This document shows, piece by piece, positions 19,612 through 31,341 of a stretch of 64,000 nt of DNA (positions within the stretch are counted from its first letter, which is position 1; each line of letters begins with the position of its first letter). Made by a program: the position numbers and the translations under genes. This stretch comes from Wenyingzhuangia fucanilytica (GTDB lineage: Bacteria > Bacteroidota > Bacteroidia > Flavobacteriales > Flavobacteriaceae). Location of the stretch: positions 2,108,001-2,172,000 of the forward strand of contig NZ_CP014224.1 in NCBI RefSeq assembly GCF_001697185.1, in the 5' to 3' direction. Under the pieces are notes generated by a model. That model ran no database searches and had not been told where the DNA came from. It saw only the letters and a program-made list of their open reading frames with translations.

Positions 19612-19656
19612 GACATTACCTCAAGATAGTGCATCTCGACTTCGCTCGATGACCTT
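19612..19656. repeat. Dispersed-repeat fragment (GACTTCGCTCGATGACC type)
   Basis: The stretch CATCTCGACTTCGCTCGATGA, split around 19632-19651, has the look of the short GC-richer palindromic repeats that lie between genes in this window (28372-28436, 29359-29431, 29733-29813, 29837-29886). It contains TCGA on both sides of CTTCGC. It lies between the heptamer array and the terminator of the convergent pair xerD/rny. No coding function is evident. Confidence 0.5.
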
Positions 19657-28371: not shown

Positions 28372-28436
28372 TGTCAGTTCGAGTAATTTAGAGGCACGAG
28401 AAATTGTATCGAGAACTCACCCAAATTGACATCTTT
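28372..28436. repeat. Imperfect palindromic intergenic repeat
   Basis: Between aguA and aguB, ATGTCAGTTCGAG at the left is mirrored by TCGAGAACT and TTGACAT at the right, an imperfect inverted repeat of about 65 bp. It is richer in GC than its surroundings and resembles the dispersed palindromic repeats of flavobacterial genomes. It may fold in the transcript between the two genes. Confidence 0.55.
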
Positions 28437-28461: not shown

Positions 28462-29346
28462 ATGAGCAAATTAAACGTTGGAATTGTACAACAAATCTGT
28501 ACAACAAACAAACAAGATAATATTGATAAGTCTATTGCAGGTATTAAACAATGTGCAAAAGATGGAGCTGAACTAGTTGTTTTACAAGAACTACACACAG
28601 GAATCTATTTTTGCCAAGCCGAAGAAGTTGATATGTTTGATTGGGCCGAACCTATTCCTGGACCGTCTTATAACCAGTTTGCTGCCATTGCTAAAGAATT
28701 AAACATTGTTTTGGTTACTTCTTTGTTCGAAAAAAGAGCACCTGGAATTTATCACAACACTGCTGTAGTTTTTGAAAAAGACGGAACCGAAGCTGGACGT
28801 TATAGAAAAATGCACATTCCGGATGACCCCGCTTATTACGAAAAATTCTACTTTACTCCTGGTGATTTAGGTTTTAACCCTATACAAACATCAGTAGGAA
28901 AATTAGGCGTTTTGGTTTGTTGGGATCAATGGTACCCAGAAGCAGCTAGACTAATGGCCATGGCTGGAGCAGAAATGTTAATTTATCCAACTGCCATAGG
29001 ATACGAAAGTACAGATTCTGATGAAGAAAAAGCACGTCAACGTGGAGCTTGGATGATTTCTCAAAGAGGACATGCAGTTGCTAACGGATTACCAGTAATT
29101 GCTGTAAACCGAGTTGGTTTTGAAAAAGACTGGACAGGTGTGACCAACGGAATTGAATTTTGGGGAACTAGTTTTATTACAGGTCCGCAAGGAGAAATTA
29201 TTTGGGAAGCCAATCAAAAGGAAGAACTTACCAAAGTGATAGAGATTGATAAAAAAAGAACTGAAGACGTAAGACGTATTTGGCCTTTCTTTAGGGACAG
29301 AAGAATTGATGCTTATGGTGATATCACGAAAAGATATATAGATTAA
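28462..29346 (+). CDS. aguB: N-carbamoylputrescine amidase
   Basis: A 294-residue nitrilase-superfamily hydrolase converting N-carbamoylputrescine to putrescine, CO2 and ammonia. The catalytic triad is visible: glutamate in VVLQELHTG, lysine in GRYRKMHIPDDP and cysteine in GVLVCWDQWYPEAARLMA. The length and the pairing with AguA make the assignment strong. A plant-type agmatine route is thus complete here; the arginine decarboxylase that would supply agmatine is not in the window. Confidence 0.95.
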   Translation: MSKLNVGIVQQICTTNKQDNIDKSIAGIKQCAKDGAELVVLQELHTGIYFCQAEEVDMFDWAEPIPGPSYNQFAAIAKELNIVLVTSLFEKRAPGIYHNTAVVFEKDGTEAGRYRKMHIPDDPAYYEKFYFTPGDLGFNPIQTSVGKLGVLVCWDQWYPEAARLMAMAGAEMLIYPTAIGYESTDSDEEKARQRGAWMISQRGHAVANGLPVIAVNRVGFEKDWTGVTNGIEFWGTSFITGPQGEIIWEANQKEELTKVIEIDKKRTEDVRRIWPFFRDRRIDAYGDITKRYID

Positions 29347-29358
29347 TCTTCTATCAAC

Positions 29359-29431
29359 ACAAGCTCAGACTGACTCTAAGAATAAAATTCTTAATATAAA
29401 TAATGTCACACTGAGCCTGTCGAAGTGCGAG
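29359..29431. repeat. Dispersed palindromic repeat, left of the GIY-YIG gene
   Basis: ACAAGCTCAGACTGAC (29359-29374) pairs with GTCACACTGAGCCTGT (29405-29420) in 13 of 16 positions around a loop. The loop itself contains TAAGAAT/ATTCTTA. The right arm continues CGAAGTGCGAG. CTGAGCCTGTCGAAG (29411-29425) is the exact reverse complement of 29733-29747 on the other side of the GIY-YIG gene. Confidence 0.8.
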
Positions 29432-29453
29432 TTTTATTTATTATTCTAATGCA

Positions 29454-29771
29454 ATGTTTTATTATGTATACATCCTAAAATGCTCAGATAACAGTTTTTA
29501 TATTGGTATTACCAACAACATTACACGAAGACTAGAAGAACATCAATCTGGAAAACATTTTAATAGTTACACATATAGAAGACTTCCTGTAGAATTAGTA
29601 TGGTTACAAGAATTTACAAATCCTGAAATAGCTATTGCTAAAGAAAAACAACTAAAAGGATGGAGTAGACGTAAAAAACAAGCTTTGATTGATGAAGATT
29701 ATCAAAAATTAGTTCATTTTTCTCAAAATAGTCTTCGACAGGCTCAGACTGATAATCCTAAAAAGAAATAA
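29454..29771 (+). CDS. GIY-YIG nuclease family protein
   Basis: A 105-residue single-domain GIY-YIG endonuclease-like protein of the UPF0213/YhbQ type. Residues seen: Y-V-Y at 4-6, Y-I-G at 16-18, N21, R25/R26 and the catalytic glutamate E64 (AIAKEKQLKGW). The last dozen residues (SLRQAQTDNPKKK) are encoded by a copy of the dispersed repeat, so the repeat has been captured as the tail. The gene is framed by inverted and direct copies of that repeat. The natural role is unknown; it may be a DNA repair nuclease or part of a small mobile unit. Confidence 0.88.
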   Translation: MFYYVYILKCSDNSFYIGITNNITRRLEEHQSGKHFNSYTYRRLPVELVWLQEFTNPEIAIAKEKQLKGWSRRKKQALIDEDYQKLVHFSQNSLRQAQTDNPKKK

Positions 29772-29813
29772 ACATTTTATAATAATAAACTGTTATACTA
29801 AGCTCGTTGAAAC
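29733..29813. repeat. Dispersed palindromic repeat, right of and inside the GIY-YIG gene end
   Basis: CTTCGACAGGCTCAGACTGA (29733-29752) is coding for the protein tail. A degenerate reverse copy, CTGTTATACTAAGCTCGTTG, lies at 29790-29809. The first 15 bases are an exact inverted copy of 29411-29425, and ACAGGCTCAGACTGA matches ACAAGCTCAGACTGA at 29359 in 14 of 15 positions. Confidence 0.8.
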
Positions 29814-29836
29814 ATAAAAACCTTACTTCATTCTAA

Positions 29837-29886
29837 AATGTCACGCCGAACTAAGCTTGTATTGAGTTAACCGAAGTATCGAAGCA
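29837..29886. repeat. Further dispersed-repeat fragment
   Basis: AATGTCACGCCGAACTAAGC, followed by TTGTATTGAGTTAACCGAAG and TATCGAAGCAT, shares the GTCAC start and the CGAAG elements of the neighbouring repeats. It lies in the 286-bp gap before the ClC gene, which otherwise shows nothing definite. Confidence 0.5.
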
Positions 29887-30057: not shown

Positions 30058-31341
30058 ATGAGAAAAGAAGTGATTAGAAAAGGATACTACAACCTAATAT
30101 TAAACTCTATTTGGGTTGGGATTTTAGCAACTTTATTAGGAGTTTCCTTAAAAAATAGCACCGCTTTTTTTGAAGAATCTTTATTAGAAAACATAGAACA
30201 CTTCCCTGTACTCTATATATTTTTACCTTCAATAGGAATCACTATTATTTATTTTACCAGAAAGTATTTATTTAAAGGAAAACAGAATAAAGGGATTAAA
30301 GAAATTTTTAACACCCTTGAAAAAAGAAAAGATGAATTGCCTTTTTATAAAATTCCATCACATTACATCAATGGTTTTTTAACTGTAGTTTTTGGTGGAT
30401 CTACTGGAATAGAAGTTTCTACTGTAGTAGCAACTGCTGCCATTGGAAGTAGTGTTTATAAAAAAGACAAAGTTGCCAATGCCTATAAAACAGAATTAAT
30501 TTGTGCTGGAGTTGCCGCTGGGGTTACCACTTTGTTCGGAAGCCCAATTGCAGGACTCTTATTTGCAATAGAAGTTATTTCACGTAAAGTAAACAAAACT
30601 TTATTTTTAAGTTGTGCCATTTCTATAGCTATTGCTCAAACTTTTATTTTCTTTTTTGACAACAAAAAACTATTTGATTTTGAAGTTTTTAACTGGAACT
30701 ACCATGCCATTCCTTATATGATACTACTTAGTATATTAGCAGGAATAGTTGCGGTTTTCTTTACCAAAAGTGTCATTTTTATTAAAACCAAATTTGCCCA
30801 AATAAAAAGTAATTTCATTCGTGTTAATACAGGAGCTTTGTTGGTTGGTTTAGGAATTTTTATATTTCCTGCTTTATATGGTGATAGTTATCATGCAATA
30901 CCAGAGCTAATATTAACCCCTAATTATCAAACTATCTCTATAGGTTTTATTGCTTCATTAGTCTTTATTGTTTTTTTAAAACCTATTGCAGCTTCCTTAA
31001 CTTTAGGTGCAGGTGGCGATGGTGGTGTATTTGCCCCAAGTATTGTAACTGGAGCTATTCTAGGGATTTTTATTGCTTTGTTTTGCAATCACTTTTTTGA
31101 CACAGAATTAATTGTATTAAATTTTGCTTTAATTGGAGCTGCCGCTATGTTAAGCGCAGCCATCCATGCTCCATTAACCGCTCTATTCCTAACTTGTAAT
31201 ATTGTAGATAATGGTTTTGCTCTTTTTATTCCATTGTTGATAGGTGTTTATATAGCTAAATATATCGCTATATTTTTGTGCAACTACAACGTATACACCT
31301 ATGAAAAAGGAAAGAAAAAACTTTCTATCCAACTAAAGTAA
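30058..31341 (+). CDS. ClC family chloride channel/transporter
   Basis: A 427-residue membrane protein of the ClC family with about ten or more hydrophobic segments. The motif region corresponding to GREGP reads GIEVS here (FGGSTGIEVSTVVATAAIGS), keeping the gating glutamate but not the flanking residues. The later GxFxP motif is intact in GAGGDGGVFAPSIV. The usual first motif GSGIP is replaced by KGIKEI. No CBS domains follow. Transport of chloride in exchange for protons is expected, but the divergent motifs leave ion choice open. Confidence 0.88.
   Translation: MRKEVIRKGYYNLILNSIWVGILATLLGVSLKNSTAFFEESLLENIEHFPVLYIFLPSIGITIIYFTRKYLFKGKQNKGIKEIFNTLEKRKDELPFYKIPSHYINGFLTVVFGGSTGIEVSTVVATAAIGSSVYKKDKVANAYKTELICAGVAAGVTTLFGSPIAGLLFAIEVISRKVNKTLFLSCAISIAIAQTFIFFFDNKKLFDFEVFNWNYHAIPYMILLSILAGIVAVFFTKSVIFIKTKFAQIKSNFIRVNTGALLVGLGIFIFPALYGDSYHAIPELILTPNYQTISIGFIASLVFIVFLKPIAASLTLGAGGDGGVFAPSIVTGAILGIFIALFCNHFFDTELIVLNFALIGAAAMLSAAIHAPLTALFLTCNIVDNGFALFIPLLIGVYIAKYIAIFLCNYNVYTYEKGKKKLSIQLK

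Follow-up and report, generated by a model that had tools for sequence, protein, structure and literature searches.

A small gene for a GIY-YIG nuclease lies between two inverted copies of a short repeat in the chromosome of Wenyingzhuangia fucanilytica. The arrangement raises the question of whether the gene and the repeats together form a small mobile unit. A preliminary description of this DNA had proposed such a unit, comparable to REP elements with their RAYT transposase but built on a nuclease of a different family. The window analysed here is the whole stretch of 64,000 nucleotides that holds the gene (positions 2,108,001 to 2,172,000 of NZ_CP014224.1). Its features, together with related sites in other genomes, are collected in Table 1.

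Table 1. Features of the window and related sites. Positions refer to the window unless a genome or locus is named; G000 is the genome of the window.
Feature	Position	Strand	Basis or remark
GIY-YIG nuclease gene (PF01541, UPF0213-like), 105 aa	29454..29771	+	Open reading frame; Pfam E=3e-18; PDB relative 1zg2
Left repeat, hairpin CAC-TTCGACAGGCTCA-GTG with TGAC tag (read on the - strand)	29404..29427	-	Covariation in relatives
Right repeat, hairpin GTC-TTCGACAGGCTCA-GAC with TGAT (TGAC tag with one change)	29731..29753	+	Encodes part of the nuclease tail
Decayed hairpin of GTC/GAC type, CAACACAAGCTCAGACTGAC	29354..29378	+	With the left repeat, similar to the intact dimers of W. aestuarii
Putative remnants of decayed repeats 3' of the gene, ACTAAGCTCGTTGAAAC; TGTCACGCCGAACTAAGCTTG..	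29797..29881	.	Weak similarity
Left neighbour, nitrilase/amidase-type (named from sequence)	28462..29346	+	Conserved; anchor for the orthologous site in congeners
Right neighbour, ClC-type channel (named from sequence)	30058..31341	+	Adjoins the left neighbour in G121, G122 and G123, all without the nuclease gene
Repeat of another family, TGTCASTTCGAGT..TATCGAGAA	28372..28415 (genome 2136372-2136415)	+	Family framing the GIY-YIG gene at G000:C1:489716
Repeat of a third family, TCGAGCGNAGTCGAG	19635..19649 (genome 2127635-2127649)	-	Family framing the GIY-YIG gene at G000:C1:1760689
Nested-repeat sites	G000:C1:409794-409837, 1734738-1734781, 1737660-1737703; G121:C1:705593, C6:106055
tRNA-bound loci	L111, L062, L073, L175, L150, L155, L147, L151, L164, L139, L050, L174, L161		Other family genomes

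The nuclease gene and its hairpins

The reading frame between the repeat copies is a GIY-YIG gene of the expected length, as first described (Table 1). Its product matches the PDB entries 1zg2 (E 1.6e-13) and 1ywl (E 2.2e-8) and belongs to the same fold family as the UPF0213 or YhbQ-like proteins, which include these two structures and B. subtilis yazA. Residues Y6, Y16, G18, R26 and E64 are invariant in a nine-row alignment, and a search of NCBIfam gave no model for it. The last ~14 codons of the gene consist of the right repeat copy and the sequence 3' of that copy. The C-terminal SLRQAQTD is encoded by the right copy inside the reading frame (29730-29771), which bears out the earlier statement that this copy codes for the tail of the protein. 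Repeats encode the ends of nuclease reading frames at other loci too, both N-terminal (HPELVSGS, L152) and C-terminal (GPSTGSE, L075).

CTGAGCCTGTCGAAG at 29411-29425 and CTTCGACAGGCTCAG at 29733-29747 are exact reverse complements of each other. With up to two mismatches allowed, the 15-mer has just two copies in the 64-kb window, and the mean in shuffled sequence is 0.02, so the inverted pair on either side of the gene exceeds chance. Both copies can be read as hairpins with a closing stem of 3 bp. Among 155 distinct window-type hairpins from 37 loci, stem pair 2 is Watson-Crick in 90% (31% when shuffled) and stem pair 3 in 86% (38% when shuffled), with several pair types at each of these positions. 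Stem pair 1 is near-constant and therefore carries little information on pairing; at pair 4 and beyond, pairing is not clearly above shuffles in the same set. The stem is followed by a tag in which T, G, A and C are found in 138, 139, 141 and 136 of the 155 hairpins (88-91% per position). The constancy of the 13-nt loop is imposed by the search pattern.

Folding of the single strands gave no strong palindrome signal, with z values of -1.8 for the left flank and -0.2 for the right (-1.8 to -0.03 for the flanks overall). Folding alone was uninformative and does not confirm the imperfect palindromes of the preliminary description; the structural signal rests on covariation between relatives. A second, decayed hairpin at about 29354-29378 lies beside that at 29404-29427, so the left flank resembles a head-to-head dimer. 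Intact head-to-head dimers are found at the W. aestuarii locus, to which the left flank of the window (29354-29427) is similar, and at several further loci. With its eroded repeats and almost no dispersed copies, the window unit looks old.

Repeat families of the chromosome

The exact 15-mer occurs three times in the 3.43 Mb of the chromosome, and two of the three copies are at the window gene. The preliminary description had taken the repeat to be dispersed, with related copies at 28372, 19632 and 29837. This has to be revised: the window repeat is nearly confined to its own gene, the repeats at 28372 and 19632 belong to two other families that each surround another small GIY-YIG gene of the same genome, and the sequence at 29837 is at best a decayed relative. 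One single dispersed family is ruled out; there are three distinct families, each with its own GIY-YIG gene. The chromosome carries three small GIY-YIG genes in addition to UvrC, and the two outside the window locus lie in intergenic stretches dense with different repeats.

A search for Y1/RAYT transposases, which covered PF01797 (Y1_Tnp), gave zero matches in the one-contig genome; as a control, the same search gave matches in 5 of 14 control genomes. Mobilisation by a RAYT from within the genome itself is ruled out by this result. General searches for the repeats were also made. Counting of k-mers over the sampled stretches gave just seven 14-mers that were present in at least six stretches, BLAST of the window flanks against these stretches gave weak matches, and at seven loci no Rfam family reached the gathering score.

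Linkage of repeats and nuclease genes across the family

The family was represented by 119 genomes, one per genus. PF01541 matches, UvrC included, are present in all 119, and several genomes have neighbouring copies among the about 150 best matches listed. The first collection comprised 82 loci, 13 of them from the genus of the window, with tandem genes counted singly; L160 contained no ORF. Flanks were examined with a composition-weighted score for inverted repeats, which was compared with dinucleotide shuffles. The test used 92 of 95 ORFs, at 80 loci, leaving out those with short flanks or more than 200 aa.

Inverted flank repeats reached p<=0.005 at 48 of the 92 small GIY-YIG genes. The corresponding figures were 2 of 163 for roomy control ORFs, which have 80 bp or more of intergenic sequence on each side, and 11 of 618 for other ORFs, all controls being from the window's genus. 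Tandem gene copies are not independent in this test; counted by locus, 46 of 80 reached the threshold. Within the genus that supplied the controls, 6 of 14 GIY-YIG genes had p<=0.005 and all 14 had p<=0.05, a level reached by 11 of 163 roomy controls. Outside the genus, 42 of 78 genes had p<=0.005. The score of the window gene itself is modest (z 2.0, p 0.03). A second collection of 80 loci, of which 79 were used, gave 47 of 79 at p<=0.005, or 45 of 75 once four previously examined loci are excluded. The idea that GIY-YIG genes are framed by repeats therefore holds well beyond the window, with a linkage far above that of the controls. A plain match-count score was dropped: at a score of 16 it gave 50 of 95 GIY-YIG genes and 45 of 163 controls, a weak separation that arises because AT-rich chance matches weigh the same as others.

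A [CT]GTCA or TGAC[AG] tag is present in the upstream arm at 62 of 95 loci, where 17.4 would be expected. The framing of a partner gene by its own inverted hairpin repeats, a trait of REPtrons, is found here with a GIY-YIG gene as the partner.

Correspondence of repeat class and nuclease clade

When the repeats are placed beside the order of the protein tree, window-like proteins go with CTTCGACARGCTCAG, another subclade with TCGAGCGCAGTCGAG and a further one with CGTCASTTCGAGTG...GTATCGAGAA. Other clades go with CCTGAAC..GTTTCAGG, CCTGCG..GCAGGAATC and CATTGCGA..GAAGCAATC. Using class patterns that were written after many flanks had been seen, a class motif was found within 300 bp of 129 of 170 GIY-YIG genes versus 29 of 771 control ORFs (16 of the 163 roomy ones). 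The 170 genes, from which 4 loci duplicating earlier proteins had been removed, were placed on a quick FastTree tree. The repeat class changes 17 times on this tree, compared with 75.2 times for shuffled labels (never below 66 in 300 shuffles), a count made on 129 rows, as 41 of the 170 have no class motif, and one in which the shuffle overstates the surprise because closely related genes may have inherited the same flanks. A distinct repeat class goes with each main nuclease clade.

The pairing can also be seen in the distribution over genomes of CCTGAACTTGTTTCAGG, a repeat of the CCTGAAC class. It occurs in 35 of the 119 genomes, and its backward control in none. The nuclease clade of this repeat, taken at 140 bits or more from the gap between 140 and 126, is present in 16 of the 119 genomes, with stop codons in two of the matches. 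The repeat is found in 15 of the 16 genomes that have the clade versus 20 of the 103 that do not (Fisher p=1.0e-8). Without the six genomes that supplied the search model, the comparison is 9 of 10 versus 20 of 103 (p=1.4e-5). An exact copy lies within 150 bp of the gene for 11 of the 16 clade genes. Five of the 20 genomes that have the repeat and no core-clade nuclease have an intermediate match (114-126 bits). The existence of these 20 genomes indicates that repeats can persist or travel alone.

At one locus of the genus (L099, G123:C178:237206-237430), the GIY-YIG gene is broken by a stop codon, and hairpins of the CCTGAAC..GTTTCAGG type still stand on both sides.

Copy number and alleles within the genus

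Seven genomes of the genus were compared, namely that of the window (G000), W. aestuarii (G119) and G120 to G124, with repeats counted in forward and reverse orientation. The W. aestuarii protein of NZ_JAATJG010000002.1 (L176) is identical to that of G119:C2 (342,126 bases). The four genomes that have the matching nuclease hold 31, 37, 27 and 14 L006-type repeats. The three that lack it hold 0, 5 and 1, the last of these genomes being 85% complete. The contrast is weaker for L005-type repeats, with 64, 52, 40 and 32 copies where the matching nuclease is present and 27, 22 and 0 where it is absent; L005-type repeats without that nuclease occur in G120 and G122. At up to two mismatches, there are 2 window-type repeats in the own genome and 8 in W. 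aestuarii, the two genomes that have the gene; the remaining five have none. Read backward, as a control, the pattern matches once in the own genome and nowhere else. The gene locus accounts for both repeats of the own genome and for 5 of the 8 of W. aestuarii. The partner repeat thus stands by the gene; as to dispersal, the window type has its 3 exact copies and the sister systems have 14-64 copies in nuclease-bearing genomes. Across the congeners, the number of repeats goes largely with the matching nuclease. The tie is not strict because 27 and 22 copies of the L005 type occur where the nuclease is absent, and the CCTGAAC repeat occurs in 20 of 103 genomes that have no member of its clade. 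G122 has no PF01541 match apart from UvrC.

Orthologous sites were compared by means of the conserved neighbours. G124, which is 85% complete, is without the orthologous amidase and falls outside this comparison. At the window locus, the nuclease gene and its repeats are present in two of the six genomes compared (the own genome and W. aestuarii). G121 has a decayed repeat dimer and no gene, G122 and G120 have traces, with a different right neighbour in G120, and G123 is clean. At the L006 locus, the gene and repeats are present in G120 and G000, two inverted repeats and no gene in G122, while G119 and G121 are clean, with the flanks adjoining; G123 has a different neighbour there and is outside the comparison. 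The preliminary description had proposed to look for empty sites in relatives, and such sites are present at both loci.

The direction of change at these sites can be read in more than one way. The breakpoints between G122 and G120 at the L006 locus fall within repeats, so loss by recombination between direct repeats reads as well as an insertion without a gene. The extra stretch of G122 at this locus includes ~57 bp of non-repeat sequence. The neighbour protein has an identity of 93% in G122, 91% in G120 and 69-73% in the others. By sequence, the carriers at the L006 locus appear to form one branch, which suggests gain there. At the window locus, two divergent members of the genus have the unit and three have decayed or repeat-only sites, a distribution that differential loss accounts for as readily as gain does. 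None of the compared loci shows a fresh insertion bounded by a clean target duplication.

The nuclease types also change address within the genus. The L006-type genes of G121 and G123 have no neighbourhood in common with those of G000 and G120. Among L005-type genes, one pair (G119 and G121) lies in a common neighbourhood, and the pair of G119 and G123 has a common 0.5-kb stretch some kilobases away, in a comparison where some loci span just 2-3 kb.

Related genes in other phyla and known repeat systems

Outside the family, 16 loci were taken from 53 listed rows (48 distinct records) of a plasmid collection, one per genus except for two Sphingomonas, with seven listed genera left out. They span Cyanobacteria, alpha-, beta- and gammaproteobacteria, Cytophagales and Bacillota. 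Inverted flank repeats were found at p<=0.005 for 9 of the 16 (Planktothrix, Shinella, Sinorhizobium, Spirosoma, Azospirillum, Novosphingobium, Neisseria gonorrhoeae, Sphingobium and Methylobacterium) and at p<=0.05 for 10, the weaker one being Aeromonas. The flank test was negative for Rhizobium K1/93, Photobacterium, Sphingomonas parapaucimobilis, Bacillus subtilis yazA and Vibrio. S. parapaucimobilis has an inverted pair upstream only. Unlike the window locus, that of yazA shows no inverted repeats in its flanks (p 0.27), and it overlaps the adjacent genes. The row of Sphingomonas paeninsulae, also among the 16, is not valid, as an early stop led to wrongly placed flanks.

Many of these repeats are of the CGTCA/TGTCA... 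form, as are CGTC REPs; the Neisseria repeat is CGTCATTCCCGCG..GCGGGAATC. The main text of the survey that defined CGTC REPs describes a CGTC or TGTC tag and head-to-head (HH) dimers in five phyla, including Bacteroidetes and Chlorobi, and equates Neisseria dRS3 with CGTC-1 (Di Nocera 2013, PMC3733652). It states that CGTC REPs "apparently lack a dedicated transposase" and reports no link to transposase genes; the term GIY-YIG has 0 occurrences in that main text (PMC3733652). The window-type repeats resemble CGTC REPs in the unpaired CGTC/TGTC tag at the hairpin end. Head-to-head dimers, the predominant arrangement of CGTC REPs, occur here in W. aestuarii and at several loci. The window-type repeats differ in having a 3-bp covarying stem and a 13-nt loop, compared with a stem of 8-9 bp and a loop of 4-5 nt in the survey's Table 1 (PMC3733652). 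The flank repeats of the GIY-YIG genes of Neisseria, Sinorhizobium and Azospirillum look like CGTC REPs.

The likeness to REP/RAYT systems (REPtrons, REPINs) extends to short tagged intergenic hairpins that are often head-to-head, a nuclease gene framed by its own hairpins, repeat-specific partner genes and gene-less repeats. The differences are that the partner here is a GIY-YIG and not an HUH/Y1 protein, the tag is TGTC/CGTC and not GTAG, and PF01797 is absent from the own genome. The proposal of a REP/RAYT-like unit with a different nuclease family is thus strengthened by the linkage, the pairing of clade and class, the lack of a RAYT, and the empty and repeat-only sites. Among the literature matches listed, none joins small GIY-YIG genes with REP-like repeats, as judged by title and start of the abstract.

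A further parallel comes from Neisseria. A study of Ssn from 2025 reportedly describes small site-specific, single-strand GIY-YIG nucleases with NTS repeats, which modulate transformation, and is said to include homologues with other specificities. The window protein likewise is a small, single-domain GIY-YIG protein with an intact motif, and it has its own repeat at the gene; in the sister systems the corresponding repeats are present in many copies, as in Ssn systems. The N. gonorrhoeae homologue compared here, which we take to be the published Ssn, sits in dRS3-like repeats and shares 37% identity with the window protein across 79 aa. The tag, the clade lock over many classes, the empty sites and the address changes of the present systems are not known to be part of the Ssn description. 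If Ssn acts as reported, it supplies the biochemistry and a portion of the connection between nuclease and repeat, which makes the association less novel and the mechanism proposed below likelier.

A sister branch at tRNA genes

The small GIY-YIG genes include a deeper branch that is located at tRNA genes. A tRNA overlaps or is within 150 bp at 13 of 16 loci scanned, often with tandem gene copies. Among the repeat-bearing clades, 2 of 47 scanned loci have a tRNA, and a more distant one. The link was found by following the tree order after a first sighting, so the sampling may be biased. At 11 of the 13 loci, a second copy of part of the tRNA and/or of the next 15 bp is present on the other side of the gene. 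This copy is 16-37 nt long and exact at ten loci, and 23 nt long at 96% at one. Inverted flank repeats at p<=0.005 were found for 4 of 21 genes of this branch. The layout is as if a unit inserts into the tRNA and restores it.

Interpretation

The evidence inclines us, with fair but far from full confidence, to regard the window locus as a REPtron-type minimal mobile or formerly mobile element, in which a small GIY-YIG nuclease gene lies inside inverted hairpins that the nuclease would recognise. By analogy with Neisseria Ssn, the nuclease is probably specific for hairpins and single strands. Its sites would be the hairpins with the GTCA/TGAC head tag, often arranged as head-to-head dimers, and the gene-less copies would be the non-autonomous form. 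When the locus becomes single-stranded, on the lagging strand or in incoming DNA, the hairpin would fold, and the nuclease would cut it close to the tag. Repair by the host, or recombination among the repeats, could then copy the gene with its repeats, or the repeats alone, into intergenic sites. We infer the recognition, the single-strand specificity and the cut position, and also the host mediation of insertion, the last because GIY-YIG enzymes have no known strand-transfer chemistry.

A more general proposal, to which we give slightly less than an even chance, is that CGTC/TGTC-tagged REPs of different bacterial phyla have their long-missing partner in small GIY-YIG nucleases, which promote their own spread. 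A unit of one gene would then rank among the smallest autonomous mobile elements, with gene-less dimers as non-autonomous elements. The sister branch, with the same chemistry, would sit in tRNA genes, which can form hairpins when single-stranded, and would restore the tRNA on insertion. The main text of the 2013 survey left open what moves CGTC REPs, including Neisseria dRS3 (PMC3733652). As each main repeat class has its own nuclease clade, and empty and repeat-only alleles exist, the mover of CGTC REPs becomes testable with proteins of ~100 residues. If true, the proposal would bring a second enzyme family, with a different chemistry, into the REP world and would explain the repeat-coded ends on some small proteins. 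It would also yield a list of candidate nucleases specific for hairpins or sites, each with its target beside the gene.

The pairing of repeats and nucleases could instead reflect a DNA-uptake or recombination system kept by the host, following the Ssn/NTS picture. The repeats would be retained as nuclease sites and their clustering would come from local duplication, with nothing selfish or mobile about them. The clade-specific pairing and the covarying hairpins fit a specific nuclease and its sites, and the N. gonorrhoeae homologue in its dRS3-like repeats, if it is the Ssn that reportedly modulates transformation, fits as well. However, the patchy presence, the clean empty sites and the unrelated addresses within the genus would be odd for a host function, and G122 has no PF01541 match besides UvrC. 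We consider this explanation unlikely. GIY-YIG is a classical homing-nuclease domain, and a homing-type element would also account for empty and occupied alleles at one site. In that case, the nuclease would cut unit-less alleles and be copied by recombination with the donor, with the repeats as homing site and homology arms. The tRNA-part copies on the far side of the sister-branch genes give a homing-like layout. Homing restores the same site, though, while the same nuclease type is found here at unrelated loci, and the repeats are also dispersed as gene-less copies, which makes homing an improbable account of these loci.

Passive co-location is the least probable of these explanations, and we give it very little credence. 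It holds that repeats and small dispensable genes gather in tolerant intergenic spots and that another enzyme spreads the repeats. The L005-type repeats of G120 and G122, present without the nuclease, agree with it, as do the repeat motifs near 16 of the 163 roomy controls, which are ORFs of the genus not chosen as patchy small genes. Set against this are the frequencies of class motifs at nuclease genes and control ORFs (129 of 170 and 29 of 771), and tolerance does not explain the match of class and clade (17 versus 75 changes). Furthermore, a search limited to Y1_Tnp found no such enzyme in the own genome. The reading as a REPtron-type element serves as the working model.

Other repeat arrangements

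Repeats of different classes can be nested. At the sites given in Table 1, a TGTCA.TTCGAGTG..TGTATCGAGAA repeat has as its loop the hairpin CCCTGAACTTGTTTCAGGG, or a variant of it, which belongs to a different nuclease class. A tandem array is present at L010 2890-4070 (G000:C1 about 182890-184070), with units of ~111 bp that each contain a TGTCACTTCGAGTGAATCAC..GTATCGAG-like repeat. The array is flanked by two ordinary genes, without a nuclease gene. The third exact copy of the window 15-mer, along with other short repeats, adjoins an ORF for a four-helix-bundle protein (L001 963-1250; G000:C1 about 253969-254256), presumably of the 23S intervening-sequence type. Four-helix-bundle genes may be another patchy family associated with repeats.
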